From Chitinophagaceae bacterium (GTDB taxonomy: Bacteria; Bacteroidota; Bacteroidia; Chitinophagales; Chitinophagaceae), in assembly GCA_016787065.1 (NCBI GenBank), contig JAEUVD010000033.1, positions 1 to 64,000 on the forward strand: DNA of 64,000 bases, read 5' to 3'. Position 1 is the stretch's first letter; every line of letters starts with the position of its first letter. The notes under the pieces were generated by a model. The model had not been told where the DNA came from. It was given only the letters and a program-made list of their open reading frames with translations, and ran no database searches. The position numbers and the translations under genes are program-made. Positions 17,453 to 55,590 of this stretch are shown one piece after another.

Positions 17453-18250
17453 ATGCCACCCAAAAACTTCACTATCACCGAAATAAACAAAATTAAACTC
17501 CAACAGCCTATGGAGTTTGTTTTCATTCAAGCAAAAAATCAACGCTTTCTTTTTCAAGAGCAGGATGCTTCACCGTTTAAACATGATACCAGCCAAAAAA
17601 TTGAATTTACAAACGATTTTTACCTCTGTGCCTTCCAAACCACACAGGAATTCTGGCAATTGGTTGCGAAAGGGCATTCGAATTTAGCCGAGAACCCGAG
17701 TCAATTCAACTATCCAACCCGACCGGTAGAATGCATAAGTTGGTTGGATGTACAACACTTTTTGACAGTGCTCAATGACCTTTGGCAAACGAAGGAAGGC
17801 TTTACCTTGGGTGAAGCAAATAGCCAAAAACCAGGTGGTGTGTTTCAACTCCCCTCTGAGGTGCAATGGGAATATGCTGCCCGAGGTGGGCTTGAGCAAT
17901 CTCCCTTGCTTTTTGCCGGATCTGATCAGGCAGATGATGTTGCTTGGTTCTCAAGGAATGCGAACCAAACAACTATGCCGGTAGGTTTAAAGCAAGCCAA
18001 TGCCTTAGGATTGCACGATATGAGCGGCAATGTGTGGGAATGGTGTGGCAACGATTTTCAACATATTTCTACGGATGGAGAATCTGGTATCACTCATGCA
18101 GAAAAAACTAAATCGCTACGGGGCGGCAGTTGCTGGTACAAGGCCGGGGACTGTCGGGTGCGCCATCGCTTCAACTTCCACCCCGACTTCCGCAACATCA
18201 GCATCGGTTTTCGGCTCCTGTTTGTTCCCAGTTCATCAACCGCAGGCTGA
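17453..18250 (+). CDS. DGR target 1: FGE-sulfatase/C-type-lectin-fold protein with variable C-terminus
   Basis: The 265-residue product has the formylglycine-generating-enzyme-like (SUMF1) fold used by many DGR targets as a variable lectin scaffold. Landmarks are the shared N-terminal block FTITEINKIKLQQPMEFVFI, FYLCAFQTTQEFWQLV, RPVECISWLDVQHF, LPSEVQWEYAARGG, MPVGLKQANALGLHDMSGNV and WEWCGND. The variable C-terminus begins at LRGGSCWYKAGDCRVRHRF and ends GFRLLFVPSSST. The catalytic cysteine arrangement of true FGE enzymes is not evident, so a binding role is more likely than catalysis. There is no signal peptide or membrane segment, so it should act in the cytoplasm. The DGR core and the first Roc-COR-TIR gene follow. 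The last 122 bases of homology to the template are annotated separately. Confidence 0.9.
   Translation: MPPKNFTITEINKIKLQQPMEFVFIQAKNQRFLFQEQDASPFKHDTSQKIEFTNDFYLCAFQTTQEFWQLVAKGHSNLAENPSQFNYPTRPVECISWLDVQHFLTVLNDLWQTKEGFTLGEANSQKPGGVFQLPSEVQWEYAARGGLEQSPLLFAGSDQADDVAWFSRNANQTTMPVGLKQANALGLHDMSGNVWEWCGNDFQHISTDGESGITHAEKTKSLRGGSCWYKAGDCRVRHRFNFHPDFRNISIGFRLLFVPSSSTAG
18114..18235 (+). repeat. DGR variable repeat VR1
   Basis: This 122-bp segment aligns to the template at 19762-19889. In the first 65 alignable bases I count nine substitutions at template adenines (for example AAC to TTC, TAC to TGC) and one elsewhere (AAT to AAG). The 3' end, ATCGGTTTTCGGCTCCTG followed by TTTGTTCCCAG, is identical to the template and should be the initiation (IMH-type) end. 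It encodes the exposed C-terminal residues of target 1. Confidence 0.9.
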
Positions 18251-18286: not shown

Positions 18287-18329
18287 GCTCGACCGAAGCA
18301 ATTTTTTCGTATATATAAAAAATAAAACC

Positions 18330-18764
18330 ATGATGCAATTAAAAATAATAAGTGTGCCAGTTATAGGTGGTGAGATGGAAACAGAAACAATAAATGTTTG
18401 GATAAAACAAAGCAAAGTAATTTCATTAGATAAACAATTAGTTTGTGTTGGAAGTATGTACTACTGGAGTTTCTGTTTTCAGTTTTTAGAGGGAGCGATT
18501 CCGGGCCGAAATTTAAAATATCCGGAAAAAGTAGATTACCGCATGGTGCTTGAGGAGGATGTGTTTAAACGATTTGCCGCTCTAAGGGAAATAAGAAAGG
18601 AAATAGCAAAGGCTGAAGCTATACCCGCTTTTGCAATTTTTACCGATGCCGAATTGGCGGAAATGGCAAAAGTTGAAATACTAACATCCGAGGTCATGCA
18701 AAATATTCAAGGTATCGGAGAAAAGAAAATTGAAAAATATGGAAGTAAATTTTTAAACAGATGA
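18330..18764 (+). CDS. HRDC-domain DGR accessory protein
   Basis: The 144-residue product starts at the ATG at 18330 (a second ATG follows directly); the longer frame that begins upstream runs out of frame through the variable repeat and is not real. The C-terminal half is an HRDC nucleic-acid-binding domain: FAALREIRKEIAKAEAIPAF, IFTDAELAEMAKVE, IQGIGEKKIEKYGSKFL. The N-terminal 70 residues (IISVPVIGGEMETETINVWI, SMYYWSFCFQFLEG) are not recognised. Its stop overlaps the reverse transcriptase start as ATGA, which implies translational coupling. HRDC proteins are known in some DGRs in the position otherwise held by the Avd accessory protein. It presumably helps bind template RNA or the target during retrohoming. 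Confidence 0.85.
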   Translation: MMQLKIISVPVIGGEMETETINVWIKQSKVISLDKQLVCVGSMYYWSFCFQFLEGAIPGRNLKYPEKVDYRMVLEEDVFKRFAALREIRKEIAKAEAIPAFAIFTDAELAEMAKVEILTSEVMQNIQGIGEKKIEKYGSKFLNR

Positions 18765-19951
18765 AAAGGGAAGCAAATTTAATCGAACAGATTGCCGATA
18801 CTCAAAATTTGTATTGGGCCTTTTGGAAAGCTAAACGTGGAAAAAATTCGAATAGTCAGGTTATTAAATTTCGTGAAGATTTGTATGTCCAAATTTTACT
18901 TTTACGTGATGAAATACTTAACGGAAAAATAGAAGTAGGGAACTATCATTTTTTCAAAATATTTGATCCCAAAGAGCGACAAATATGTGCTGCTCCATTT
19001 CGTGAACGTGTTTTACACCATGCTATCATGAATATTTGTCATCAAAATTTCGAGAAATTTCAAACACCTGATTCCTTTGCTACTCGTCAAGGTAAAGGAA
19101 CTTATGCGGCTGTATATCGTGCTTTAAGTATGCAAGGGAAGTTCGATTATTTTGTAAAAATTGACTGTAAAAAATACTTCGATAGTATTGATCACGGCAT
19201 TTTAAAAATGCAACTAGTAAGACGTTTTAAAGATGAACGTTTTTTAGAACTCCTTTTTAAAATAATAGATAGTTATGAAACCACTGTTGGTAAAGGACTA
19301 CCGATTGGCAATTTAACCAGTCAGTATTTTGCAAATCACTATTTAGCACATGGAGATCATTTTTTAAAGGAGAAGAATAAACTTCCTGCTATGGTGCGCT
19401 ATATGGATGATCTTCTTTTATGGCATAATAATCCTAAACACTTAGCGGCAATTAGTACAACTATTGAAGATTGGTGTTACAGTCAATTGGCACTTACATT
19501 TAAACATCGATATATGAATACTACTAAACACGGTGTTTCCTTCCTAGGGTTTTACTTATGCAAACATCATATTGAACTTAGCCGAAAAAGTAAACAGCGG
19601 TTAATTTATAAATATAATAGTATTCAGAAAGATTATAAACAAGGTATTTTGAGTGAAAAACAATATAGCACCAAACTAGAGAGCATTTTAGTGCGACCAT
19701 GTAAAGCAAGAACATTTCATTTTAGAAATAAACTTTTTCGGAATATAAACGAAGGTACAAACGCTACGGGGCGGCAGTTACTGGAACAATGCCAGGAACT
19801 GTCGGGTGCGCAATCGCAACAACAACCATCCCAACAACCATCCCAACAACCACAACATCGGTTTTCGGCTCCTGTTTGTTCCCAGCTCAAACTTATTTTT
19901 AAAGATGAACCGTTTGTATTTCCAATCTGTGGCTCCGGCTCAGTAAATTAA
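18761..19951 (+). CDS. DGR reverse transcriptase
   Basis: The 396-residue protein has the reverse transcriptase motifs in order: RERVLHHAIMNI, TRQGKGTYAAVYRAL, KIDCKKYFDSIDHGIL (first catalytic Asp), the DGR-typical GLPIGNLTSQYFANHYL in place of the GxPQG motif of group II introns, YMDDLL (catalytic Asp pair) and GVSFLGFYL. It would copy the template RNA with errors at adenines and drive cDNA homing into the variable repeats. The domain proper ends near residue 330. The remaining 65 residues (ATGRQLLEQCQE and a Gln/Pro-rich run) are read through the template repeat in a frame different from the one used in the targets, so the TR lies inside this gene. The start overlaps the HRDC gene by four bases. 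Confidence 0.95.
   Translation: MKREANLIEQIADTQNLYWAFWKAKRGKNSNSQVIKFREDLYVQILLLRDEILNGKIEVGNYHFFKIFDPKERQICAAPFRERVLHHAIMNICHQNFEKFQTPDSFATRQGKGTYAAVYRALSMQGKFDYFVKIDCKKYFDSIDHGILKMQLVRRFKDERFLELLFKIIDSYETTVGKGLPIGNLTSQYFANHYLAHGDHFLKEKNKLPAMVRYMDDLLLWHNNPKHLAAISTTIEDWCYSQLALTFKHRYMNTTKHGVSFLGFYLCKHHIELSRKSKQRLIYKYNSIQKDYKQGILSEKQYSTKLESILVRPCKARTFHFRNKLFRNINEGTNATGRQLLEQCQELSGAQSQQQPSQQPSQQPQHRFSAPVCSQLKLIFKDEPFVFPICGSGSVN
19762..19889 (+). repeat. DGR template repeat (TR)
   Basis: This 128-bp segment matches the 3' ends of three target genes (VR1 18114, VR2 24149, VR3 51221). Read in the target frame it encodes LRGGSYWNNARNCRVRNR and then an Asn-rich run, mostly AAC codons, the usual design of a mutable template. 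It is 6 bp longer than all three VRs because of a near-tandem AACAACCATCCC duplication (about 19817-19842), and has T where all three VRs have G (19790). It overlaps the end of the reverse transcriptase frame. Confidence 0.92.
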
Positions 19952-20011: not shown

Positions 20012-23000
20012 ATGAAGAACTTCTTATACATACTAGAAAACTTAAAACTCCAAGCTAAGGAAGAAAAAAAGGAAGCCGGAAAGAAGGGCATAGTAACATC
20101 TCAATCCGAAATATTTTGGGATGAAAGGAATATCGCAAAGGGCGCATCTGATATTCGTTATTACATAGATGAGCATGAGTTCCATCTTCATCTTTCGGAT
20201 ACTGAAATATTGGATGATGCGGCTTGGAAAAAAATCATGGTGGCTATCAAGCAAGATAAGCTGGATCAAAAGATAAGGGTATTGTATCTTGCTCGTAACG
20301 GGTTAAGCCATTTTCAGTTAGAAGATTTTACTAAGCTTGAACTCTTAAATATTTCCGGTAATCAAAAACTAGAATCCCTTACACTTAAAAACCTACCTGC
20401 AATACAACGTGTAGAAGCCGCTCATAGTAAACAATTGGAAGTTGTAACCATGGAAGGAAATTTCCCGTTCTTAACCAAAATAGACGTCTCCAATGGGGCT
20501 ATCAAAGAAGTTCATTGGCGTAAAGCCGAACTTCCAGCTTTACAGTACTTCTTTGCCTTCCATAACCCTGATTTACATATACAATGGGGTAGTGCATTAG
20601 ATAAGATCGAGATGATTATGGTTGATGAAGCCTGTCGCATCGAATCGGGTATTTTACCTTCTCTAAGCAAAACAGGAAACGACTTACGCAACTTTCTAAA
20701 TAGCACCTTACAAGATATTGATAAAGGTAAAGGAGTACAACAATTCAATCTTCTCAAACTTATTTTTATCGGCAATACCACGGCAGGAAAATCTACGTTG
20801 AGGCGTGTTCTATTAAGTGAAAAGAAAAAACGTAATGAAGGCAGTACCCATGGTGTTATTCTATTTAATAAAACTATTAGGGTGCGCAAAGGCAAAGAAT
20901 CGAAGGATGTCGTAATACAGGGTTTTGATTTTGGTGGACAAGATTATTACCATGCTACTCATCTACCGTTTTATCAAAAACGAAGCTTAACCATTTTAGT
21001 GTATGGGAATACAAATTTCAACGAAGAACATCCGGATCCTGCCTTGGCATTTACCACCGGTCTAGTTACCTCCGGCAAAGGAAAAAAAGCAAAGCTTAGA
21101 GAGGAAGTCATGTATCCGCTGAACTATTGGATGAGTAGTTTAAAATTTACCAAAGAAGAAGAAAAAAAATCTACTCATGAGGAACAAAAGGAATCAAGAG
21201 CTAATGCTGCACTTTCAACGCGGCAAGAAAGTGCGAAGGATAATAGTATAACGAATCCTGAAGTATCTATTGTAAAAAATTATTCTTACGACAAAATTGA
21301 GGTGGAATCTAAACTGGCCCTTGTTCAAAATCTAAGAAAGGGTGTTCATCCTTACGAACTTAATATACTTAACATAAAACAAATTAAGCATATCCACTTA
21401 AGCAGTGTAGCATCTTACAATTTTGATGAACAAGATGCAGAAGCCTTTACCTGGCTTTCAGAAAATATTTTCGACGCCGCTTTCCCCGAAACATACACCA
21501 AAAATAATACAGCTTTGCAAAAAGCCCTTATCAGTACGGGCCATGTAATTTATTCTGCTACAGAAATTAAAAAGTACGTCAACGAAAACTACAAGGATAC
21601 AGAGCTAGAAGCAAGTTTAGAGTACCTGCATAACTGTCATGAAGGCTATTATTTTCGTCCGAAAAAAGATTCGGCTGTGTCCTTCTATATTGCCGATATG
21701 AAAACCTTCTTTTCCTGGATACATGATGATGTATTACATGAAGATTTGATTGCACAAGGTTATTTCAGCAAAAATGAATTCCAAAAGAAACCGCACATCA
21801 TCAAACATTGGGATAAGCTGTTATGCTTTTTACAAGAAGAGAAGATCATCTTTCCGGTGAAAGAAGATCAGGATCAAACCCATGCCACGCAGGCAGAAGA
21901 ACGCTATGTGGCTCCGGCTTACTTGCCTATCCCTATATCCAAGATTGATAACTTATTATTAGATTCCTTTAATACGCCTGATTGCATTTTTGAGTTTCCC
22001 GACTTTTTTCATTCGAATATCATCATGATGATTATTGATGGTTTCATTCCTCACTTAATTCATGATCCAAATGAACGAACGTATTTGCTTTGGAAGAATA
22101 AAGTAATATTAGGTGAATCGAAAACAGATGAAACCACTTCCGAAAAAACCGATAAGGCTCTCCTGTTGATCGAGTTGAAATTTCCCGGAATCGATGGCAG
22201 CGAGGTAAGGCTGCCACAACTCAGTATTTCACGCAACCAATCAGGCTTTGTAAAAGATAGTTTGTTTAAAGAAGTATTTGATTTTATAAAGAAGGAAGTG
22301 AGTGCGTTTCAGTGTACCATCCGAATTAAAACTCGTTTAGGAAAGTATATTCCGTTTACTTGTTTAGATCAAAAGAACATGCTTCAAGGCAAAGCGAAAA
22401 CAAATTTAATTTTTCATGAAGATACTTTTTACTCGAAATCAGATTTCAGGCACTTTATGGAAGATAAAATAAACGAACCTACTAAAATCTTCATTGCTTA
22501 CTCCCGCCATGATCTGGCTTATGTGGAAGAACTCTTACTTCACCTGCATCATTATGAGGCGGAAGGTGAAGTAGAAGTATTTTATGATAAACGACTTTCG
22601 GTAGGACAAAAATGGGATGAAGAAACCAAGCATCATCTCATTACCTCTGATTTGGTGCTATGCATGGTATCGCCGGAAATGTTAGCTACTGAAATAATTA
22701 CACAAATTGAAATACCTACGGCCCATCGGGAAGGCATACCCATTATACCGGTTATTTTACGTGATTGTTATTGGACTCAATTGCCCATCGATCGCGATAC
22801 GAGTTGGTTAGGCGATTATAATGCGTATGATAAAGCTACCGTGTTACCATCCGATCGTTATGCTCGTGAAACACAATGGATGCACTTAGCTGAACAACTC
22901 AGTAAAAAACCAACACGCAACAAAGGAGATGCTCAAGTTAGGAGCAATGAATTAAGTATCGGTAAGTTGCCCTCTAACTCCTGTCTTATTTTTTCGGAGG

Positions 23001-23413
23001 AAGACCAAGCCTATGCCGACGAATTGAAACAACATCTTGCAGCCTTGAACGAGGATGACCGAATAACCTTTACGGAAATAGTTGTAAAGAAAACAACCAA
23101 GGTTTTGAGCAAAGCGGTCATGCAACATCTGCACGAAGCCGATACCCTGTTGTGTTTGCTTTCTTCTACTTTATTAGCAACGAGTATTTTCCGACAAGAT
23201 TTCTTGCAGCTAGCTGCTCAGCAACAAAAAACGTTAGACACGGTGATACTGCGCGAATGTGCTTGGCAAAAAATAGGGGCTCACCTATACTTGTATAATA
23301 AAGGACAGGTTTTACCGCCCGACCGCTATGCGCGCGAAGCACATTGGCTAGCCTTGGCTGAACTACTTGTAAAGGGTATACTAAAACTTAAAAACAACGT
23401 AACGCATGAATAA
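20012..23413 (+). CDS. Roc-COR-TIR protein 1 (LRR-like N-terminus, second degenerate TIR)
   Basis: This 1133-residue protein combines leucine-rich-like repeats (about 85-215; KLELLNISGNQKLESLTL) with a Roc-type GTPase domain: P-loop GNTTAGKST near 254 and G3 motif FDFGGQDYYHATHLPFY near 304. A charged linker of about 100 residues follows, then a COR-like region (FFHSNIIMMIIDGF, LLWKNKVIL, LLIELKFPGIDG, LSISRNQSGFVKDS). A TIR domain covers about 823-965 (TKIFIAYSRHDLAYVEE, VFYDKRLSVGQKWDEETKHH), with the W-x-E-E region that in active TIR NADases holds the catalytic Glu. A second TIR-like copy (about 988-1125) lacks that signature. The G4 position reads LVQNLR, not NKxD. It is probably an effector or relay coupled to DGR target 1; NAD cleavage is inferred from family knowledge only. 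Confidence 0.85.
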   Translation: MKNFLYILENLKLQAKEEKKEAGKKGIVTSQSEIFWDERNIAKGASDIRYYIDEHEFHLHLSDTEILDDAAWKKIMVAIKQDKLDQKIRVLYLARNGLSHFQLEDFTKLELLNISGNQKLESLTLKNLPAIQRVEAAHSKQLEVVTMEGNFPFLTKIDVSNGAIKEVHWRKAELPALQYFFAFHNPDLHIQWGSALDKIEMIMVDEACRIESGILPSLSKTGNDLRNFLNSTLQDIDKGKGVQQFNLLKLIFIGNTTAGKSTLRRVLLSEKKKRNEGSTHGVILFNKTIRVRKGKESKDVVIQGFDFGGQDYYHATHLPFYQKRSLTILVYGNTNFNEEHPDPALAFTTGLVTSGKGKKAKLREEVMYPLNYWMSSLKFTKEEEKKSTHEEQKESRANAALSTRQESAKDNSITNPEVSIVKNYSYDKIEVESKLALVQNLRKGVHPYELNILNIKQIKHIHLSSVASYNFDEQDAEAFTWLSENIFDAAFPETYTKNNTALQKALISTGHVIYSATEIKKYVNENYKDTELEASLEYLHNCHEGYYFRPKKDSAVSFYIADMKTFFSWIHDDVLHEDLIAQGYFSKNEFQKKPHIIKHWDKLLCFLQEEKIIFPVKEDQDQTHATQAEERYVAPAYLPIPISKIDNLLLDSFNTPDCIFEFPDFFHSNIIMMIIDGFIPHLIHDPNERTYLLWKNKVILGESKTDETTSEKTDKALLLIELKFPGIDGSEVRLPQLSISRNQSGFVKDSLFKEVFDFIKKEVSAFQCTIRIKTRLGKYIPFTCLDQKNMLQGKAKTNLIFHEDTFYSKSDFRHFMEDKINEPTKIFIAYSRHDLAYVEELLLHLHHYEAEGEVEVFYDKRLSVGQKWDEETKHHLITSDLVLCMVSPEMLATEIITQIEIPTAHREGIPIIPVILRDCYWTQLPIDRDTSWLGDYNAYDKATVLPSDRYARETQWMHLAEQLSKKPTRNKGDAQVRSNELSIGKLPSNSCLIFSEEDQAYADELKQHLAALNEDDRITFTEIVVKKTTKVLSKAVMQHLHEADTLLCLLSSTLLATSIFRQDFLQLAAQQQKTLDTVILRECAWQKIGAHLYLYNKGQVLPPDRYAREAHWLALAELLVKGILKLKNNVTHE

Positions 23414-23490: not shown

Positions 23491-24282
23491 ATGGAATCAA
23501 AAAACTTTACCATAACCCAAATCGGTGATATCGTGCTTAAACAACCCATGCCATTTATTTTTATTGAAGCGAAGGGTAAAACCTTTTTATTTCAGGAAGA
23601 TGATAAAAGTGGTTTTATGGATATTGATATGGAGCCCAAATCCATTCAGTTCAAAAACAACTTCTATCTCTGCGCCTACCCTTGTACCCAAGAGTTTTGG
23701 CAGGCTGTTGTTTCGCAAACCGGAGGACATGATTTAGAGAGTAGTCCCGTAAGGTCTAAGGGACTTACCCGCCCGGTGGAGAATGTAAGTTGGCATGATA
23801 TTAAACTTTTTATTAGTCTGCTTCATCATCTACTTCATAATGAAAAGTTGTTTGCAGGCAATCAGGTAATCAAACTCAAAGGAGGCTTTAATCTTCCCTC
23901 CGAAATACAATGGGAATATGCAGCACGTGCCGGAGGAGCGTTTTTGTTTGCCGGTTCAAATCAAGTACAAGATGTGGCTTGGTATGATGGTAATAATGAT
24001 TTACATACCATGCCCGTAGGACTCAAAAAACCGAACGCTTGGGGTTTGTTTGATATGAGTGGCAATGTGTATGAATGGTGTGCGAATAATTCCAACGAGT
24101 TGCCTGAGCATGGTGAGGCAGGGGATATGGACCAAGATAATACTGTTTCGCTGCGGGGCGGCGGTTGCTGGGACGGGGCCAGGAGCTGTTGGGTGCGCAA
24201 TCGCTACTTCATCCGCCCCGACCGCCGCATCCGCCTCATCGGTTTTCGGCTCCTGTTTTCTCCCAGTTCATCAACCGCCTAG
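23491..24282 (+). CDS. DGR target 2: FGE/C-type-lectin-fold protein with variable C-terminus
   Basis: The 263-residue product is a paralogue of target 1 with the same landmarks: FTITQIGDIVLKQPMPFIFI, FYLCAYPCTQEFWQ, RPVENVSWHDIKLF, LPSEIQWEYAARAGG, MPVGLKKPNAWGLFDMSGNV and YEWCANN. The variable tail is LRGGGCWDGARSCWVRNRYF...GFRLLFSPSSST. There is no signal peptide, so it should be cytoplasmic. It lies 77 bases after Roc-COR-TIR 1 and is followed, after a strong stem-loop, by Roc-COR-TIR 2, reproducing the target/effector pairing. No operator palindrome is present in front of it, so it may be read from the upstream promoter. Confidence 0.9.
   Translation: MESKNFTITQIGDIVLKQPMPFIFIEAKGKTFLFQEDDKSGFMDIDMEPKSIQFKNNFYLCAYPCTQEFWQAVVSQTGGHDLESSPVRSKGLTRPVENVSWHDIKLFISLLHHLLHNEKLFAGNQVIKLKGGFNLPSEIQWEYAARAGGAFLFAGSNQVQDVAWYDGNNDLHTMPVGLKKPNAWGLFDMSGNVYEWCANNSNELPEHGEAGDMDQDNTVSLRGGGCWDGARSCWVRNRYFIRPDRRIRLIGFRLLFSPSSSTA
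24149..24270 (+). repeat. DGR variable repeat VR2
   Basis: This 122-bp segment aligns to the TR. In the first 65 bases I count 11 substitutions at template adenines and two elsewhere (AAT third base to G, CGG to TGG). The third base of every AAC codon is kept as C. The conserved 3' end ATCGGTTTTCGGCTCCTG is identical to the TR; the next bases (TTTTCTCCCAG) match VR3 rather than the TR. Confidence 0.9.
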
Positions 24283-24432: not shown

Positions 24433-27400
24433 ATGAGCACCAAAGGAAAAAAAATTAGTGAGCTTTCGGAGAACTATATTTTGGTTGATAATATGGAAGA
24501 ATTACTGTTTGCAACAGTCATGGTTTCATTTTCAGAGGATGATTATGAAGCGGCACCCAAAGGAATTAGCTACCGTTATTTTTGGGATGGTAAGGAATTA
24601 GGGATACATATTGTGGATGAAAATTTTACAGATGCGGATTGGGAAGAATTAAAAACATCCTTATCAACCAAATTCGAGACCTTGCAAGTTTTGTATCTGA
24701 GTGCAACGGGGATGCAAAAAATGAGTTTTAAAGATTTGCGTCAATTGAAACAGATCTTTTTAAACAATAATAAAAACCTAGAAACGCTAGAATTAAAAAA
24801 TGTACCTAGTTTACAAATTGTTGAGGTTGCTTGTTGCAGGCAATTGTACGAGGTAAATATCATTGGAGATTTCCCAATTTTAGAGAAGTTTGATATTTCC
24901 GTTGGACAAGTTGAAACCATCTTATGGGATTGTGCCATCTTACCGAAACTCTTCTACTTGAATGTTCAAAAAAATAAACTAACGGAATTGAATTTAGAAA
25001 AGATGCCAGCGCTGAAGTATGTATTTGCGCGGGGTAATGCCATGCAAAATATTCTATATCCAAAGTCCTTAGATGAAATTTCAATAATAGAAGTTGATAC
25101 TACTTTGATTGCGGATGAAGATGAAGTGAAATTTCTGCAACTAACAGATTTAGACTTACAACAGGCAATTCGAAATAAATTTATGCGCAAAGCTTCAGGT
25201 ACTGTGGCTGTTTATCGCATTAAGCTCATTCTCTTGGGTAATACTACGGTGGGTAAAACGTCGCTCAGAAAAATTCTTCTTTCTCCAAAAGGCAAGGAGA
25301 ATAAGGCGGCAACGTTTAACCAAAATAGTACGCATGGAGTGTACATTTTCAATAAAACCTATCAAACAAAAGATGGGAAGACTATTTATATGCAAGGGTT
25401 TGATTTTGGAGGACAGGATTATTACCATGCTGCGCATTTACCCTATTATGATCATCACGCTTTAAATGTATTGGTTTACGGTTTTGGTGAGGATATTATA
25501 AATCCGGAAAAATTTACCGCTTATCAATTTGGTTTAAAGCTTAAACCTAAAAAGCTGAAACAACCTAAAGACCCATTTAAACAGAATGAGGATGATGACG
25601 AGGAAACAATTAAAGAGGAATTCGATATTGTGTACCCGATACCTTATTGGGTAGGAAGTTTGAAGAATAAAGCGATTGTAGATTGGTACAAAGCAAGACA
25701 GAATAAAATTGCGAATTTTTTATCTTCACAACAGGAACAAGAAATGGAGATAAAACAGGATACTTCTGAAGAGATCTTAATCATTCCACAATCGAAACTT
25801 GAACTCATTCAAAATAAACGAGCAAATCATAATTTGTTGGAGCTTGATAATTTCTCTTTAAAGAATAATCCTGAAGTGAAGATTGGAGACATTGCCCACT
25901 TCGAGTTTGTTACTCAAGGATCCAAGGTTAAAGATTGGTTAGAAGAAAAGATTTACAAGTATGGTGTGACTCGAGAAACATCACTTGCTACACTTGATTT
26001 TGAACTCGGGCAGTTCTTTCAAAAAAAAGCAAATAAAGTACTGTTTTCAAAAGAGGATTTAATAAAACTTCCGGAGGTAAAGAAAACATTTGATTTAGAA
26101 CCCACCGAGTATATTGGCAAAACGGACGATGAAAAGGAAGCAATACGAATGCAACGATTAACCAACGTACTAGAAAGTTTACATAATTACCAATTCGGGT
26201 ATTTTTTCAATCCTGATAAAAACATGGATTCGGCCTACTTTATTGCTAATCAGGAGAAATTTTCGAAATGGATACATAACGATATTCTATCCGAATCAAA
26301 AGCGCTCAAACATGGCTATATACTTAGAACGGATATTCTGAAAATTGTCAAAAATCCTTGCGAAGGCAATCTAGATGAAGTACTCCGTTTTTTAATGGAT
26401 CAACATATTTTATTTCGGGTCAAAGGGAATGAAAATAAATGGGTAGCACCATCGTATTTGCCGCCTTTGAAACGTACGGTGGATAGGCTTTTGTTAGAGT
26501 CCTTCGATTTGCCCGATTGTACCTTTACTTTCAAGGAGTATTTTCATTCGAACATCTTATTGATGATTATTGATCATTTTGAAAAGCGTTTGGTAAGCGA
26601 TCAAGGCGAGAAGAAATTTTTATTATGGAAGAATAAGGTCTTGTTACATGAAACGCCTATAGCCTTTGAAGAAGAACCAAAAGAAGGCGATACAAAACCA
26701 AAGGGGTATAAAAATCTTCGTCGTGAAAAGGCCTATTTACTCATCGAATTAAAATATCCGGGGATGGAGGGTTTTGAAGAGGAATATCCGCAATTATGTA
26801 TATCCCGAAATCAATCCGGTTATATAAAAGACAGTAATTTCAAGGAAGTCTTTAAGTTTATTTACGATTATGTTTTTCCTTTTAATCCAGATATTCAAGT
26901 AAAAACACGCTTTCATAACTACATTCCGTATGAGAGTATCTTACAGCATAACTCGAAAGAGCATAAAGAGAAAAGTGATTTGATTTTTCATAATAATACC
27001 TTTTATTCCAAATATGATTTTCGTTTATACTTACCCGACATCAAGGAGGAGCCTACTAAGATATTCATTGCTTATTCGCGTCATGATTTAGCTTATGTAG
27101 AGGAATTAGTGCTGCATTTACGTCCACATGAATTACGCGGTGATGTGGTAGTTTTTTATGATAAGCGTTTATCGGTAGCCGAGAAATGGGATGAAGAAAC
27201 CAAACATCATTTGGTAACATCGGATGTAGTGGTATGTATGGTTTCACCGGAGATGTTAGCTACTGAAATTGTAACACAAGTAGAACTACCTTTAGCACAA
27301 GAAGAGGGCATACCGATAGCGCCGATCGTGCTTCGCTCTTGTGATTGGACGCATCTGGAGTTGAATAAAAACAACCACTGGTTCGGCGATCACAATGCCT

Positions 27401-27510
27401 TTGATAAAGCGAATGTATTACCATCAGATCGTTATTCGCGAGAACAGGAATGGATGCTCTTTGCGGAGCAGTTGAAGAGGAGGGTAAAGCGCTCGCGGAA
27501 GGGTGGTTAA
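24433..27510 (+). CDS. Roc-COR-TIR protein 2
   Basis: The 1025-residue protein has the same layout as its two paralogues. It has leucine-rich-like repeats (about 75-225; LKQIFLNNNKNLETLEL) and a P-loop GNTTVGKTS near 268. The G3 motif FDFGGQDYYHAAHLPYY is near 323, followed by an acidic insertion. The G4-position LIQNKR, near 458, has Asn-Lys but lacks the guanine-specifying Asp. A COR-like region (FHSNILLMIIDHF, LLWKNKVLL, LLIELKYPGMEG, CISRNQSGYIKDS) precedes a C-terminal TIR domain (about 874-1020; TKIFIAYSRHDLAYVEE, VFYDKRLSVAEKWDEETKHH). There is no signal peptide. It follows target 2 by 150 bases. Likely role: signal relay and TIR effector controlled by the diversified partner, inferred from synteny in three copies. 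Confidence 0.87.
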   Translation: MSTKGKKISELSENYILVDNMEELLFATVMVSFSEDDYEAAPKGISYRYFWDGKELGIHIVDENFTDADWEELKTSLSTKFETLQVLYLSATGMQKMSFKDLRQLKQIFLNNNKNLETLELKNVPSLQIVEVACCRQLYEVNIIGDFPILEKFDISVGQVETILWDCAILPKLFYLNVQKNKLTELNLEKMPALKYVFARGNAMQNILYPKSLDEISIIEVDTTLIADEDEVKFLQLTDLDLQQAIRNKFMRKASGTVAVYRIKLILLGNTTVGKTSLRKILLSPKGKENKAATFNQNSTHGVYIFNKTYQTKDGKTIYMQGFDFGGQDYYHAAHLPYYDHHALNVLVYGFGEDIINPEKFTAYQFGLKLKPKKLKQPKDPFKQNEDDDEETIKEEFDIVYPIPYWVGSLKNKAIVDWYKARQNKIANFLSSQQEQEMEIKQDTSEEILIIPQSKLELIQNKRANHNLLELDNFSLKNNPEVKIGDIAHFEFVTQGSKVKDWLEEKIYKYGVTRETSLATLDFELGQFFQKKANKVLFSKEDLIKLPEVKKTFDLEPTEYIGKTDDEKEAIRMQRLTNVLESLHNYQFGYFFNPDKNMDSAYFIANQEKFSKWIHNDILSESKALKHGYILRTDILKIVKNPCEGNLDEVLRFLMDQHILFRVKGNENKWVAPSYLPPLKRTVDRLLLESFDLPDCTFTFKEYFHSNILLMIIDHFEKRLVSDQGEKKFLLWKNKVLLHETPIAFEEEPKEGDTKPKGYKNLRREKAYLLIELKYPGMEGFEEEYPQLCISRNQSGYIKDSNFKEVFKFIYDYVFPFNPDIQVKTRFHNYIPYESILQHNSKEHKEKSDLIFHNNTFYSKYDFRLYLPDIKEEPTKIFIAYSRHDLAYVEELVLHLRPHELRGDVVVFYDKRLSVAEKWDEETKHHLVTSDVVVCMVSPEMLATEIVTQVELPLAQEEGIPIAPIVLRSCDWTHLELNKNNHWFGDHNAFDKANVLPSDRYSREQEWMLFAEQLKRRVKRSRKGG

Positions 27511-33354: not shown

Positions 33355-33431
33355 AGGTTTTAATTTTAATTGGTTTAAGTATTTCAAATATACTAAAGGT
33401 CATTGCAATTTATTCTGTGATAAAATACAAT

Positions 33432-44600: not shown

Positions 44601-45329
44601 AAAATTCAAATTCGATAGACACAATTTAGCTAGTTCAATTTTATATAGTCTTTCGTTAATGTTTTTACAGAGAACTATTAATCGGCGAAGCATCTTTTGC
44701 TCTCTATTTAAAAACCACCAATCTTTTTGACCTAGATTTTGAAAGTCTTTGTTGCTTAACTCTTCGTCTATCTTATCGATATTTATGCCATCCCAAGATC
44801 GAAAGTCAAGATGGGCATTTTCATCTGTAATTTTTACTGGGTCGATGTCTTCGTGAAAATGCAATTTATTAAATTCCTCCTGATTTTGAAGTATAAAATT
44901 GATTGCTTCTTCATCCTCATACTTATTCTTCCAAGCTTTATCTTCGTGATTATTAGATATTTTTGGTGTCCATCCAGGAATATCATTATAAATTATGAAC
45001 AATGGAGTTTCTGCACCTTTTGGTTTTTGATAAGTAGTTTCGTAGAATTCTTTCCATTCAAATCTACATTCTTCACTTTCAACATATTTCTTTGATAAAA
45101 TGGCTATAAATCCTGCTGAATTCTTGATAGCTTCATTGGTTTTTATTTTCCATTTGTCTCCAGCATTAATGGACTCAATATCCATAAAAAATTCAATGTT
45201 GGTGTTATATAATTTATTATATGTTTTTATTAGTAAATCCTTAAAATATTTTACAGGGCCATAATTCCTCTTGGAATCCTTCGGAGTATCATCAGATCTT
45301 CTGTAGGAAAGAAAAAATTTACAATTCAT
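41643..45329 (-). CDS. TIR-STAND NTPase 2 with long helical C-terminus
   Basis: The 1228-residue product parallels TIR-STAND 1. A TIR/SEFIR domain fills residues 1-165 (CKFFLSYRRSDDTPKDSKRN, FFMDIESINAGDKWKIKTNE, FIAILSKKYVESEECRFEW). The NTPase domain has a phosphate-binding loop LNAFGGMGKTAIAVKYA near 274, Walker B-type ILFIIDNMND near 415, FNLLITTRLKPKD, and GYPLPTVLVAAHLGI. A helical repeat region of about 650 residues follows. The protein is a distant paralogue of TIR-STAND 1, with different C-terminal sequence, which fits different triggers. It is the first gene of a two-gene operon with the TPR/membrane protein. No operator palindrome lies in its short upstream region. Confidence 0.88.
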   Translation of the reverse strand: MNCKFFLSYRRSDDTPKDSKRNYGPVKYFKDLLIKTYNKLYNTNIEFFMDIESINAGDKWKIKTNEAIKNSAGFIAILSKKYVESEECRFEWKEFYETTYQKPKGAETPLFIIYNDIPGWTPKISNNHEDKAWKNKYEDEEAINFILQNQEEFNKLHFHEDIDPVKITDENAHLDFRSWDGINIDKIDEELSNKDFQNLGQKDWWFLNREQKMLRRLIVLCKNINERLYKIELAKLCLSNLNFDKTDSHFVGRNKDVEFIETTLKGNKICSLNAFGGMGKTAIAVKYASVIRNEFVTGGIWFIDYDKVGNPNHISPIADNKEEESKEIQNKMDRLVKECYKTVYENNRTSLSSLNKDDQEIELRKLGLKPPIEYLVMDKEIEKLNTGAIFNSLRTYCEKRAEILQTRTSAKLSIENHRILFIIDNMNDAEMLSKDYFKSIASGWFNLLITTRLKPKDIQSSDINSKVIEPLNENESNSIFKSYYSISKPQNKYKFYQPDYQSSLTELINNCLKGYPLPTVLVAAHLGINTDINPSKYMKYLDDIGLKVGQMDIKAIQKPGLPYHDNNYEEDENSIDKPNPALLRGIVRIFIEHLEKLPLIGEGSKGELAVLILHYSIYFHNEYINVLWIKDWIMTRNENKFETGLNSEELFESAMIILKEYQILSEINIESKGSYHTMHKLVQIELKKELSRDKNGVKILEGIYENLRAVKFNSNGEEYERDWEEKNNSINDAKNLIELFKGFTENNIIPIADVKDIILFISSLPQLNLNEDATELLSRVQSILIAESKRFQKADFNNTNLAEYFLLSYLELLAMYKSLGFTKNKFKLFEKVELQPVLNRSIELGSKLALELEKIIPYEEKSNLERIYNNFLILHFNIQYEYIISYNWDLDYSSIIHVEKELLRLKMSIERIEQNSLAGDVLYVGIYNKLINSLNIAKKKLGKDNEMLDLKNFKDSTNLSASSKFENKLQVALNNIRLGKYENAYLDILQLDGLLKDCYSEYGLEQLQVFQYILNIEKLWTGYKINMLNVKEFCFKTSELISHVLNYVNAAKIQIRELGQLNKLAEYLAQILHGETSKKSTKEDIYICVKEIWNKCKELCALPPVESEFNLIFRIGFSNIFSLSLMDNRTALEIAEETWNILPDRFKKDNAENTNEMMLYLMVLDALIGGYFKFSKSDNNALKKFSEYMYLLESKLNFISATFHHGVLPPKIETALNGLYNKYLDYKE

Positions 45330-50427: not shown

Positions 50428-51354
50428 ATGGAAAACTTTACCATTACCCATATCGGAGACTATGAATTATTACAACCCATGCCCTTTATTTTTATACCGG
50501 CGAAGGGCAAGGAGTTTACTTCAGAATTGAACAGGAAAAAAGGGGTGTTTGCTGATGATTTTTTTATGGCGGCTTACCCTTGTACTCAGGAGTTTTGGAG
50601 GGAAGTAATTCTTCATGTTCAAAAAGCACCGAAATCACCTCAGGTTATTGAATTGGAGGAGAAGATAGGGGAATTGAAAATTGAAAAAAATAAAGCGGTT
50701 AAAAGTCGGGACTTTGAAATGGCAGCTTCTTTGCGCGATATAGAGAAGAAATATCAGTATGAGCTTGAATTACTTAATGGTTTAGAATTGAATCCTAAAC
50801 CATCTCGTTTCCGGGGTGATACTAAACCGGTAGAAAAAGTGTCTTGGTATGAAGTAAGTCAATTTGCCAACACCTTAAATACACTTTTGGAAAACGGAAT
50901 TTTTGGAGAGCAGAATACTAATAATATCTTAAAGTCTATCACTATAAATGGTGCGTTTATGCTGCCTTCTGAAGCGCAATGGCGTTATGCGGCACAAGGT
51001 GGAGTAACACATGAAAATTTTGAATTTCCCGAAACCGACTATCTGCCGGATGTGGGTTGGTTTGAGGAGAATGCCAAAGAAATTATGCCCGTAGGGTTGA
51101 AGCAACCCAATGCATTACAGCTTTACGATGTATGTGGTAATGTTTGGGAATGGTGTGGGAACGAGTATGATCAATATCCATTAGATGGAAGTACTGGAGA
51201 GAATAATGGAAATTCCAAAACTCTGCGGGGCGGCGGTTACTGGGACGAGGCCAGGTACTGTCGGGTGCGCGATCGCTACCACGACCTCCCCGACAACCGC
51301 AGCAACAACATCGGTTTTCGGCTCCTGTTTTCTCCCAGTTCATCCACCGCTTAA
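50428..51354 (+). CDS. DGR target 3: FGE/C-type-lectin-fold protein with UVR-like insertion
   Basis: The 308-residue product (from the ATG at 50428; an upstream in-frame start adds 20 residues over the promoter and is rejected) is the third paralogue. It has FTITHIGDYELLQPMPFIFI, FFMAAYPCTQEFWREV, KPVEKVSWYEVSQFANTLN, LPSEAQWRYAAQGG, MPVGLKQPNALQLYDVCGNV, WEWCGNE and the variable tail LRGGGYWDEARYCRVRDRYH. Unlike the other two it carries an insertion of about 50 residues (near 75-125) whose core, EKNKAVKSRDFEMAASLRD, strongly resembles the UVR motif of ClpC and UvrB. It has its own operator-controlled promoter and is followed by Roc-COR-TIR 3. It lies about 31 kb from the template repeat. No signal peptide. 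Confidence 0.9.
   Translation: MENFTITHIGDYELLQPMPFIFIPAKGKEFTSELNRKKGVFADDFFMAAYPCTQEFWREVILHVQKAPKSPQVIELEEKIGELKIEKNKAVKSRDFEMAASLRDIEKKYQYELELLNGLELNPKPSRFRGDTKPVEKVSWYEVSQFANTLNTLLENGIFGEQNTNNILKSITINGAFMLPSEAQWRYAAQGGVTHENFEFPETDYLPDVGWFEENAKEIMPVGLKQPNALQLYDVCGNVWEWCGNEYDQYPLDGSTGENNGNSKTLRGGGYWDEARYCRVRDRYHDLPDNRSNNIGFRLLFSPSSSTA
51221..51342 (+). repeat. DGR variable repeat VR3
   Basis: This 122-bp segment aligns to the TR 31 kb upstream. In the first 65 bases I count nine changes at template adenines and one clear change elsewhere (AAT third base to G), plus a G to T at the very edge. The 3' end ATCGGTTTTCGGCTCCTG is identical to the TR. After it, TTTTCTCCCAG matches VR2. Confidence 0.9.
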
Positions 51355-51446: not shown

Positions 51447-54428
51447 ATGTCTACTGAAATTTTGATCAAGCAAGAATTTAAGCAAGAAAAGAATATAGAA
51501 AAACTAAAATGTAGTAGGAGTGCAGTAAACTTCGACGATAAAATAATCAAGACATCAACAGATAAACGCTTTTATTGGGATGGTGAACGCTTTGGCGTGC
51601 ACGTATCGGGCTCCGAAACGAATCCTTTGAATATTCCTCAACTATTTGCTTCTTGCAGCGATATGTTACCCTTTTTAGAAGTGCTCTACATTGGTAATAG
51701 TTCGCTGCATCAATTTGATACCGTTCAGTTTAAACAGGCAGGGTATGATTTATCAAGCTTGCAATATCTGTGTTTACGAGATAATGCTACTTTGGAAAAG
51801 ATTCATTTAAATAACTTGCCAAAACTTGAAATACTGCATGCTGATTGTTGTGAACAGTTAAATTATGTTAGTCTTAACGGTGATTTCTCCAAACTGAAAC
51901 AACTCGATGTATCGTGGTCCGTAATCAAAGAACTCAATTTAGCTAAAGCTATATTACCTTCATTACGTTATATATTAGCTAGGACAGAAGGAGCAACTAA
52001 AATTTTATGGCCAAGCAAACTAGAAAATATCATTCAGATAGATATTGCTGATAATTCATTACTCGAAGATGATATTAAACCCATTGTAAAATTAAGTGGT
52101 TACGAATTGCGCAAAGCGCTTAACGCCTACCTTAAAATTTACAATAAAGGCAAAGGAGTCGACAAAGAATATCAATTAAAACTGATTTTAATTGGTAATA
52201 CGGGAGCAGGTAAATCTACCCTTCGCAGAATTTTACAATCGGAAGAAGGTAAGGCAGCCGAAGCTGCAAAAGACCACGATGATGGCACACATGGCGCTGA
52301 AATCTTTAGTAAGACGTTTAGTTATTCGAATGAAGAAAACAAGATTAACGATTTACCGCAAGAAGTGTATGTACAAGGGTTTGATTTTGGTGGACAAGAT
52401 TATTACCATTCTACCCATTTGCCCTTTTATGATAAGGAGGCGCTGAATATTTTGGTATTCGGACAAGATGAATTGCCGGAACTACCTTTCGATCCGGCTT
52501 GTGATTTTAAATTGAAAGGAAGAAAGGAACTAAACGAAAAGCACACGGAAAAAACAAACCAAGCAGATGTAGTCAACGATTCGGATATTTTGTATCCTTT
52601 GAATTATTGGATGGGGAGTTTGAGTTATCGTAAAGAGCGTGAACCCCAAAAAGAGAAGGTACATAACGAGAATTCAAATGCCTCAGTTGCTGATGAAGAA
52701 ACACATGCCTTGACTAGAGATTCTAAAGAAGATAATACTAGCCAAAACTCAACCTTAGAATTAATCCAAAACAAACGACAAAATCAGCCATCCTTGGAAT
52801 TAAATACCCTGCTTTTACGCAAACAGGAGCGTATTACCGTGGGAGATATTGTAGCCTTCGATTTTGAACAAGAAAGCGAAACGGTAAAAACCTGGTTGAA
52901 AAATAAAATTCGTGTTCATGCTAAAGTAAAAACGGTTGTAACAAAAGATAAAGAGGCCGCAACCATTTTGAAGGAACAAGAACAACATGTTTTTTCTTTC
53001 GACGAATTACTAATCCTGAATAAAACGAATAAGTGGTACGAAACTGAGGTTGATATACGTGAGGCCTTAAAACGTTTGGTAAGGCGACATGAGGGTTATT
53101 ATTTTCAACCCGACGAAACATTCAAAGAAGAATTTTTTATACCCAATATTTCTGATTTCTCGAAGTGGATTCATGAACATATTCTAACCAAGGATTTACT
53201 TGGGGATGGTTATTTTTCTGATGATGATATTCAAAAAGGGAAATCAAAAAAGTATGCTCGTTGGGCTATGCTATATTTAAAACGTGAGGATATTGTGTTT
53301 GATGTGAAGTATGATGTTATTGGTTTTTCCCCGAAGAAGGTAAAGGCCAAGTATGTTGCTCCTGCCTATTTGCCAATGGCCAAACCCGGCTTGGAGCAAC
53401 TCTTTTTAGATTCTTTTGATACACCCGATTGCATTTTTACCTTCGATCGTTTTTTTCATTCTAACATTATCATGATGCTCATTGCTTCGTTTAAGGATGA
53501 ATTAGTGAGTGAATCGGAAAAGAAGGAATACTTATTGTGGAAGAATAAGGTGGTACTCTATCAACAAAAACAACAAGGTAAAGAAAGGCTAAGCGATAAA
53601 GAACGAAATGAAAAAGCATTCTTATTAATTGAATTAAAATATCCGGGTATTGATGATCTAAAAGGGAGTAAACCACAACTGAGTATCTCGCGTAATTATT
53701 CAGGGTTTGTGCAGGACAGTCGTTTTCATGATGTGTTCAAATTTATTTATGATATGCTCTTTGTTTATGATCCGCAGGTTGAGGTTAAAACCAAGTTTGG
53801 TAATTATATACCTCATCAAAAGTTGGAAGAAACTTGTATCGGAAATAAAGAACGGAGTTATTTAATTTATCATGATCGGGTGTTTTATTCACGCTTTGAT
53901 TTTCGACATTTTTGGTTAGATGAACATAACTTAAACCCAACGAAATTCTTTATTGCATACTCACGTCATGATGTTGACTATGTGCACGAATTGATGTTAC
54001 ATCTTCAACCCTTTGTACACATGGGTAAAATACTCGTGTTTTATGATTTAGATTTAAGCATGGGCGAAAAATGGAACGCCGCTACTCGTCATGAATTAGA
54101 AACTTCCGATGTGGTGCTTTGCATGGTTTCACCTAATATGTTGAATACCTCCATTGTTATGGATGAGGAACTGCCTTTGGCGAATGATAAATATAAAATC
54201 ATAGTGCCCATCATTCTTAAACCGTGTAACTGGGATTTTCTTGAATTTAATAGAGGCTATAATTTGTTGACAGCAAATAACGCGTATCGCAAAGCGGAGG
54301 TACTTTCTTTCGATAGTCATAAACGAAATGAACAATGGAAAGATATTAGTTTGAAACTATCACAACTATTACCTAAGAATATTAATTGGGATAGAAAAGA
54401 ACCAACAAACGATTTACTTGATTTCTAA
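51447..54428 (+). CDS. Roc-COR-TIR protein 3
   Basis: The 993-residue product has leucine-rich-like repeats (about 85-215; LQYLCLRDNATLEKIHLNNL) and a P-loop GNTGAGKST near 249. The G3 motif FDFGGQDYYHSTHLPFY is near 311, followed by a charged insertion. The G4-position LIQNKR (near 439) lacks the specificity Asp. A COR-like part (FFHSNIIMMLIASF, LLWKNKVVL, LLIELKYPGIDD, LSISRNYSGFVQDS) precedes a C-terminal TIR (about 830-965; TKFFIAYSRHDVDYVHEL, VFYDLDLSMGEKWNAATRHE). In the TIR the W-x-x-x-T-x-x-E spacing is kept but the E-E of the paralogues reads A-A, so catalysis may be altered. It lies 92 bases after target 3. It is the most diverged of the three paralogues. Confidence 0.86.
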   Translation: MSTEILIKQEFKQEKNIEKLKCSRSAVNFDDKIIKTSTDKRFYWDGERFGVHVSGSETNPLNIPQLFASCSDMLPFLEVLYIGNSSLHQFDTVQFKQAGYDLSSLQYLCLRDNATLEKIHLNNLPKLEILHADCCEQLNYVSLNGDFSKLKQLDVSWSVIKELNLAKAILPSLRYILARTEGATKILWPSKLENIIQIDIADNSLLEDDIKPIVKLSGYELRKALNAYLKIYNKGKGVDKEYQLKLILIGNTGAGKSTLRRILQSEEGKAAEAAKDHDDGTHGAEIFSKTFSYSNEENKINDLPQEVYVQGFDFGGQDYYHSTHLPFYDKEALNILVFGQDELPELPFDPACDFKLKGRKELNEKHTEKTNQADVVNDSDILYPLNYWMGSLSYRKEREPQKEKVHNENSNASVADEETHALTRDSKEDNTSQNSTLELIQNKRQNQPSLELNTLLLRKQERITVGDIVAFDFEQESETVKTWLKNKIRVHAKVKTVVTKDKEAATILKEQEQHVFSFDELLILNKTNKWYETEVDIREALKRLVRRHEGYYFQPDETFKEEFFIPNISDFSKWIHEHILTKDLLGDGYFSDDDIQKGKSKKYARWAMLYLKREDIVFDVKYDVIGFSPKKVKAKYVAPAYLPMAKPGLEQLFLDSFDTPDCIFTFDRFFHSNIIMMLIASFKDELVSESEKKEYLLWKNKVVLYQQKQQGKERLSDKERNEKAFLLIELKYPGIDDLKGSKPQLSISRNYSGFVQDSRFHDVFKFIYDMLFVYDPQVEVKTKFGNYIPHQKLEETCIGNKERSYLIYHDRVFYSRFDFRHFWLDEHNLNPTKFFIAYSRHDVDYVHELMLHLQPFVHMGKILVFYDLDLSMGEKWNAATRHELETSDVVLCMVSPNMLNTSIVMDEELPLANDKYKIIVPIILKPCNWDFLEFNRGYNLLTANNAYRKAEVLSFDSHKRNEQWKDISLKLSQLLPKNINWDRKEPTNDLLDF

Positions 54429-54489: not shown

Positions 54490-55590
54490 TTAAATCAATC
54501 CTTTTTCCACTAAGCCACGATAGTGTTCGCCTAATAAAGTTAACTCACAATAACCATGTCGGTCTTTTTGCATAGCCGCATGCCACATATGTGGTTCATC
54601 ACCTCCTTTAGGTACTACCAAATAAACACGATTATATTTTTGAAGGATGGCAAACTTTCTGCAGTTCTCTTTATCCGGTTCTCGGGCGTCTTTGAATCGC
54701 TTGTGGCGCTCACTATCTTCCGGTTCGTAGGTTTCATTTAAAAAGTGTTTATAGGTTGCTTTTACTTCGGTGCTACCATCCGGAAGTTCATTGGTTTGGG
54801 ATGGAAACAGCTGAACGATTTCCTTTAAATCTTTTAACGCTATTGGCGGTTTGGCTTTGCGAAGCACAACAAAAGCACTTACATTTGATTTAAAAATAGG
54901 TCGTTGTTTATACCACCGTCCGAGCGACTGATCGATATGCGAATAAATACTGGCCGGGGTTACATCACCTATGATATTAGCAGCAGCTCCTTCCAATCCT
55001 AATAACATCAATCCAGTAAATAACCCTTGGTCGTTTTCTTCGCTAGAATACTGTGTAGCTGTGGAAGAAGCAAGTAAGGTCATGTTTTTACCTAACGTGC
55101 TTGTTTTATTGTCTTGATTTTCACCGATAGCACCGCTATGGCAACTATCAATAATAATAACTTTATTCGTGGCCGGTGATTTACTAGCCCATTCCACAAT
55201 TTTATTCAATGGAATACAATCATCCGCTGTTTTTGTTTCTGGCGGACAAATATAACCTCCATCCGAGTCGATTAACCCATGACCAGAGAAATAGAATAAG
55301 GCAAGTTCTAATCCTTCCGTTTCAAAAAGGTCTTTGATTTCATCTCTTAAAATAGTTTTATTAAAAATAGCAAGATTCTTCTTTTCATTATGAACTACTT
55401 CACTTTGAACAAAGCGATCTTCCTTGGTAATTAGTTTACATTCAAAATTCTTGCTACCATATTCCGGTTTCTCGGCGTCATCATTTTTTGATAATAAGGC
55501 ATAAACCGATTCCGCATCATTTACACAACCATGTAACTGTTTTAGATTTTGGTAGCTATTAATTCCGACAATAAGTGCCATTCGTGCCAT
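54490..55590 (-). CDS. Caspase-like (C14) peptidase 2
   Basis: The 366-residue cytoplasmic protein has MALIVGINSYQNLKQLHGCV at the start of a caspase-hemoglobinase domain. The catalytic His is in LFYFSGHGL (about 104) and the catalytic Cys in VIIIDSCHSG (about 149), followed by LLASSTATQYSSEE and LFTGLMLLGLEG. The C-terminal 110 residues (KATYKHFL, RKFAILQKYNRVYLV, YCELTLLGEHYRGLVEK) share the CxLTxLGxHY ending with caspase 1 of this window. It converges with Roc-COR-TIR 3 (61 bases between stops) and diverges from the unknown/hydrolase pair. It could execute cell death or cleave a partner after recognition; no substrate is evident. Confidence 0.87.
   Translation of the reverse strand: MARMALIVGINSYQNLKQLHGCVNDAESVYALLSKNDDAEKPEYGSKNFECKLITKEDRFVQSEVVHNEKKNLAIFNKTILRDEIKDLFETEGLELALFYFSGHGLIDSDGGYICPPETKTADDCIPLNKIVEWASKSPATNKVIIIDSCHSGAIGENQDNKTSTLGKNMTLLASSTATQYSSEENDQGLFTGLMLLGLEGAAANIIGDVTPASIYSHIDQSLGRWYKQRPIFKSNVSAFVVLRKAKPPIALKDLKEIVQLFPSQTNELPDGSTEVKATYKHFLNETYEPEDSERHKRFKDAREPDKENCRKFAILQKYNRVYLVVPKGGDEPHMWHAAMQKDRHGYCELTLLGEHYRGLVEKGLI

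Follow-up and report, generated by a model that had tools for sequence, protein, structure and literature searches.

A ClpC M-domain-like insert in one of three FGE-like targets of a Chitinophagaceae diversity-generating retroelement

The retroelement, its targets and their neighbours

The window analysed here, a stretch of 64,000 nucleotides from a Chitinophagaceae bacterium, holds a diversity-generating retroelement (DGR) with a reverse transcriptase (RT), a probable accessory protein, a template repeat (TR) and three target genes (Table 1). The RT frame reads through the TR, and the C terminus of the RT is therefore partly TR-coded. Compared with the TR, the variable regions (VRs) differ at 15 of 31 adenines and 4 of 89 other bases in target 1, at 20 of 31 adenines and 6 of 89 other bases in target 2, and at 13 of 31 adenines and 7 of 89 other positions in target 3. 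The DGR is real, and the C terminus of target 3 is diversified by it.

Target 3, the start of which was chosen from its alignment with targets 1 and 2, is 51% identical to target 2 and 46% to target 1 in pairwise alignment. The only Pfam families above cut-off in this protein are FGE-sulfatase and UVR; it has neither the Clp N-domain nor the two AAA modules and thus is not a ClpC protein, no MecA domain was found by the same search, and no part that might contact the ClpC N-domain is evident. Against the FGE chain 6muj_A, C278 of target 3 matches the second active-site cysteine, while the first faces an aspartate; we take the two active-site cysteines to be Cys336 and Cys341 of human FGE. With only one of the two matched, the formylglycine-generating chemistry of target 3 is probably lost. 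The closest solved structure, and top structural match, is variable protein 1 of Treponema denticola (2y3c, E 9.1e-17), which gives target 3 a C-type lectin/FGE fold like that of the Treponema protein, itself a DGR product to judge from a paper title cited in PMC7159879.

Every one of the three targets adjoins, or shares a cassette with, an LRR-Roc-TIR gene. The neighbour of target 3 is thus a TIR gene and not a clp gene; its product is 39–40% identical to the other two LRR-Roc-TIR proteins, and its TIR region reads WNAAT where both others read WDEET, possibly an altered active site. ORFs matching this partner at E 1e-10 occur in 8 of 39 related DGR loci (L126–L164), and in L160 the matching ORF is the FGE-like ORF itself. 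The stretch between the targets is rich in defence genes. Two caspase-domain proteins are encoded in the window, at 32356–33387 (−) and 54490–55590 (−), the latter matching NCBIfam caspase_w_EACC1 below cut-off, as are two further large TIR proteins, at 35983–39579 (+) and 41643–45329 (−), one of them with an NB-ARC domain.

The LRR-Roc-TIR gene beside target 3 suggests an immune-type setting, and by gene content the target is linked to TIR and caspase genes of the effector type, as in DGR-linked conflict systems. Two accounts (PMC10907252, PMC7159879) assign DGR targets of the FGE type to putative conflict systems whose effectors are TIR, caspase-like or trypsin-like. Target 3 resembles the FGE/C-type-lectin targets known from Treponema (2y3c), from the Thiohalocapsa DGRs (PMC10907252) and from the survey of Kaur et al. 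(PMC7159879) in its diversified C-terminal lectin fold, and those placed in putative conflict systems in its TIR and caspase-like immune-type neighbours.

Table 1 Features of the locus in window coordinates, with residue numbers of target 3 where given
Feature	Position	Strand	Basis or remark
Target 1, without insert	17453..18250	+	Alignment with target 3
HRDC-domain protein, probable DGR accessory	18330..18764	+	Pfam HRDC 1.5e-17 for 18327-18764
DGR reverse transcriptase	18761..19951	+	Pfam RVT_1 2.1e-16
DGR template repeat (TR), inside 3' end of RT frame	~19759..19889	+	Repeat comparison
LRR-Roc-TIR protein of target 1/RT cassette	20012..23413	+	Domain annotation
Target 2, without insert	23491..24282	+	Alignment with target 3
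LRR-Roc-TIR protein after target 2	24433..27510	+	Domain annotation
Target 3, FGE-like (C-type lectin fold) DGR target, 308 aa	50428..51354	+	Pfam FGE-sulfatase 6.4e-31
ClpC M-domain-like insert, residues ~63-118	50614..50781	+	Match to host ClpC 440-495; not present in targets 1 and 2
Predicted hairpin helix 1, residues 71-92	50638..50703	+	Predicted by AlphaFold2, whether ClpC rows are included or not
Pfam UVR (PF02151) match	50656..50760	+	23.1 bits against gathering cut-off of 21.5; also in genome-wide search
Predicted hairpin helix 2, residues 96-117, starting with F96, then R103 and D104	50713..50778	+	AlphaFold2 models
Variable region (VR) of target 3	51218..51348	+	Repeat families D3 and D9; adenine-specific differences
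LRR-Roc-TIR protein, immediately 3' of target 3	51447..54428	+	Pfam Roc and TIR_2

The insert and its relation to ClpC

When the three targets are aligned, target 3 carries an extra stretch between TQEFW and the PVEKVSW motif that targets 1 and 2 lack, confirming an earlier note on this DNA, which had placed in target 3 alone an insertion at 50650–50805 (residues ~75–126) with the core EKNKAVKSRDFEMAASLRD (residues 86–104, window 50683–50739, + strand). We judged the bounds of the insert against targets 1 and 2 and by its similarity to ClpC. The same note had called the motif UVR-like, and the Pfam UVR profile indeed matches above its gathering cut-off (Table 1); elsewhere in the genome this profile matches in only two places, a frame of 855 aa and one that resembles UvrB.

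Its domains (Clp_N, a pair of AAA modules, and UVR at 455–489) identify the 855-aa frame as the ClpC of the host. Residues 63–118 of target 3 align with its residues 440–495 at 40.9 bits, and the aligned stretch extends into the N-terminal flank; the ungapped core shares 31 of 48 residues and 101 of 144 bases. Host UvrB reaches 6.6 bits. Searched against every sequence in the PDB, the insert matched ClpC chains of Bacillus subtilis (E 2.9e-6 to 4.2e-6) and Staphylococcus aureus as well as ClpC1-type chains; 13 of the 14 matched sequences are named ClpC or AAA+ ATPase, and one bears an unrelated name. At the level of sequence the resemblance to ClpC is far beyond chance and exceeds that to other UVR proteins. 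These ClpC, UvrB and PDB scores narrow the UVR call, so that by sequence the insert is a ClpC-type M-domain, not a generic UVR motif. Closeness to both ClpC and UvrB had been claimed; the ClpC half of that claim holds, and the match to UvrB proved much weaker. A generic UVR or UvrB/UvrC link was rejected on the scores for host ClpC, host UvrB and the PDB chains.

AlphaFold2 modelling of target 3 from a 37-row alignment, eight rows of which were trimmed ClpC fragments, gave an overall pLDDT of 91.6 and an antiparallel helical hairpin (residues 71–92 and 96–117). Omitting the ClpC rows left the same helices, with block means of 92–97 for residues 71–110 and an overall pLDDT of 83.8; the hairpin prediction is therefore independent of those rows. 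We regard the ClpC-type antiparallel hairpin as a confident prediction. The outcome that the earlier note had named as fatal to its reading was a simple coiled coil lacking a profile match; what emerged is a significant match together with a predicted coiled coil of the ClpC hairpin type.

Carroni et al. (2017, PMC5699869) report that head-to-head contacts between ClpC M-domains involve F436, R443 and D444 and that mutants of these residues are active without adaptor; they also report cellular toxicity of F436A and a crucial role of F436 in the binding of MecA. Alignment to residues 410–454 of B. subtilis ClpC shows that the equivalents in target 3 are all kept (F96, R103 and D104, respectively), and the F436 equivalent sits at the predicted hairpin tip in models with or without the ClpC rows. 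Nineteen of the 24 sites that are invariant in 22 ClpCs are kept, these three included, as are 10 of 12 such sites in the tip region (88–106); the altered five are G81, A90, R94, L116 and N117. Target 3 thus shares with the ClpC M-domain its sequence, its predicted helical hairpin and the F, R and D residues of the tip, but some ClpC-invariant sites are altered, and the module sits in an FGE-like binder and not inside an AAA+ unfoldase.

The host also encodes ClpP; we take the tripeptide VGF, which lies at 709 within the second AAA module of host ClpC, to be the ClpP loop. MecA was not found in the host genome by Pfam, in a search whose controls were positive in 2 of 14 genomes, both known for MecA.

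Occurrence, constraint and origin of the insert

No second FGE-like protein with the hairpin was found in 13 other genomes of the genus, 12 of which gave a ClpC-type match, nor among the matches listed in a search of 294 genomes of the family, nor in 50 chosen genomes including its own, 48 of which gave a match. Apart from target 3, every frame matched in the 50-genome search is roughly as long as ClpC or UvrB, or is a truncated form of such a frame, and was so assigned from length only. A search of the class, covering 395 genomes with its own among them and matches at E 1e-9 only, likewise gave no second case. GTDB contigs searched with N-terminal patterns yielded one distant FGE and no second hairpin case, and IMG/VR viral contigs yielded none; phages and plasmids gave no match to the insert, a query so short that this is weak evidence. 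Within the 39 related DGR loci, which an RT search across 396 genomes of the order had supplied, target 3 was the sole match to the insert among all ORFs of at least 120 aa at E 0.01. With a single instance and no ortholog, there is therefore no conservation of the combined hairpin and FGE-like architecture. Other FGE-like proteins tolerate length change at three positions in the fold, where 17 rows of an alignment of 113 have inserts 22–38 residues long; the insert of target 3 is itself absent from the inserts listed for this alignment, probably owing to a split match.

The reading frame of the insert is kept and free of stops, and relative to host clpC its dN is 0.265 and its dS 1.30. Neutral drift simulated on the target 3 branch alone, with 43 base differences, left a mean of 20–22 identical residues; the observed 31 was reached in no more than 1 of 20,000 such runs. 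We ran a second simulation in which clpC also drifts at silent sites, with two transition ratios and 5,000 runs each; 31 identical residues were reached in 4 and 21 runs with equal branches, in 85 and 228 when the clpC branch was doubled in length, and in 749 and 1,325 when it was quadrupled, at which point the selection signal fades. Constraint on the protein sequence of the insert is likely from these comparisons.

Host clpC is the closest relative of the insert by identity (101 of 144 nucleotides, against 79–93 in 12 congeners), and host ClpC was also the best ClpC match in the genus and 50-genome searches. Insert and host clpC use the same codon at 20 of the 31 identical residues, where 15.3 (s.d. 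2.5) would be expected from usage. Identity and codons would favour a recent copy of host clpC, but trees of the 48 residues or of the 144 nucleotides place the insert on a long branch that does not group with host ClpC, which leaves host clpC no more than a candidate donor.

Possible roles of target 3

Our tentative reading is that target 3 may be a DGR-tuned binder with a grafted ClpC M-domain hairpin, docking on ClpC as an adaptor of rewritable specificity; a look-alike of the regulatory hairpin of ClpC beside a retroelement-rewritten binding face hints at, without proving, such a route by which targets would be passed to the ClpC machine. The DGR-variable binding face would engage a partner, either foreign or perhaps the LRR-Roc-TIR protein encoded next door, and the M-domain hairpin, with a tip that is intact in sequence and predicted structure, would dock tip to tip on the M-domains of host ClpC, as these pair with one another. 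Target 3 would then compete for M-domain contacts and loosen the inactive resting state of ClpC, and the bound partner would be delivered to ClpC–ClpP. The earlier note had proposed a possible adaptor to proteolysis with a docking segment; of that interpretation the UVR assignment by profile and ClpC as the relative are supported, and the adaptor role is one that we infer.

Plant UVR proteins offer a precedent for such tip-to-tip docking. EXE1, EXE2, UVR2–4 and ClpF are reported as enriched with trapped ClpC1, UVR1 as not enriched, and a UVR–UVR contact has been suggested in the case of ClpF. There, too, a UVR/M-domain-like module is joined to another domain in proteins that associate with ClpC; unlike target 3, they are chloroplast proteins with no diversification and other partner domains (YccV, DUF151). 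MecA, a bacterial adaptor that binds the N-domain and the M-domain tip of ClpC, is comparable in that target 3 would also act on that tip, and differs in belonging to another family, in also binding the N-domain and in not being found in this genome.

In favour of docking we count the 31/48 identity to ClpC against the low UvrB score, the ClpC chains matched in the PDB, the 19 of 24 invariant sites, the confidently predicted hairpin, host ClpP and the VGF tripeptide of host ClpC, a MecA search that found none in the host, and the plant precedent, along with a protein sequence that was likely kept better than under neutral drift if the branches are equal. Against it stand the single instance, the five changed invariant sites, the want of an evident N-domain-contacting part, a neighbour that is TIR and not clp, a selection signal that fades with a fourfold clpC branch and, by analogy, MecA, which contacts the M-domain tip although it is no copy of an M-domain. 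The tip might instead serve target 3 itself: M-domain contacts in ClpC are homotypic through F436, R443 and D444, all of which target 3 keeps, so that a tip-to-tip dimer could form a bivalent sensor with ClpC uninvolved. We consider this unlikely, given that a self-matching tip should also meet the similar tip of host ClpC and that targets 1 and 2 manage without a hairpin; docking and self-pairing would nonetheless keep the same residues, and the present data therefore do not separate them.

An insert with no function of its own, a piece of clpC that recombination placed in a permissive loop and that stays there as a harmless spacer, would fit the loops that the FGE-like fold accepts elsewhere and the failure to find a second instance in the genomes searched or another matching ORF in the related DGR loci; the kept frame without stops, the kept tip residues and, if the two branches are alike, fewer amino-acid changes than under neutral drift make it improbable. 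The hairpin could also be an integrated decoy that mimics ClpC, such that a ClpC-directed factor of a phage or rival binds target 3 and triggers the LRR-Roc-TIR neighbour. That gene next door, the caspase-like and TIR genes close by and the identity of the insert, highest to the host's own ClpC, speak for such a trap, which is nevertheless quite unlikely in our estimate: the trees leave the insert ungrouped with host ClpC, a literature search for a ClpC-directed attacker gave no relevant result, and we know of no attacker aimed at ClpC. Docking of the UVR motif to UvrA, UvrB or UvrC, and hence a link to repair, has the passed Pfam cut-off on its side and is very improbable in view of the scores for host UvrB and ClpC and of the ClpC and AAA+ ATPase names among the PDB matches. 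It is on the whole doubtful that the locus encodes a protein tied to ClpC–ClpP by the M-domain tip, be it a protease adaptor that diversifies itself or an immune sensor in which the hairpin is a ClpC decoy.

Both halves of target 3, a DGR FGE-like target and a ClpC M-domain, are of known kinds, and their union was not found in print: in a literature collection with few subscription journals, no paper named a DGR together with ClpC or with a UVR domain, and ClpC and UVR are absent from the main texts of PMC10907252 and PMC7159879. DGR lectin-fold targets are thought to be sensors, most of which still await an account of the step from binding to action. Here one such target contains an identifiable piece of a well-known machine, so that binding to ClpC, or its activation, is directly testable. 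If the adaptor reading is true, the cell could deliver new intracellular targets for unfolding and would need no further adaptor gene to do so, and if the decoy form is true, attacks on ClpC would be sensed; a true connection to ClpC would be, to our knowledge, the first link of retroelement-made diversity to regulated proteolysis.
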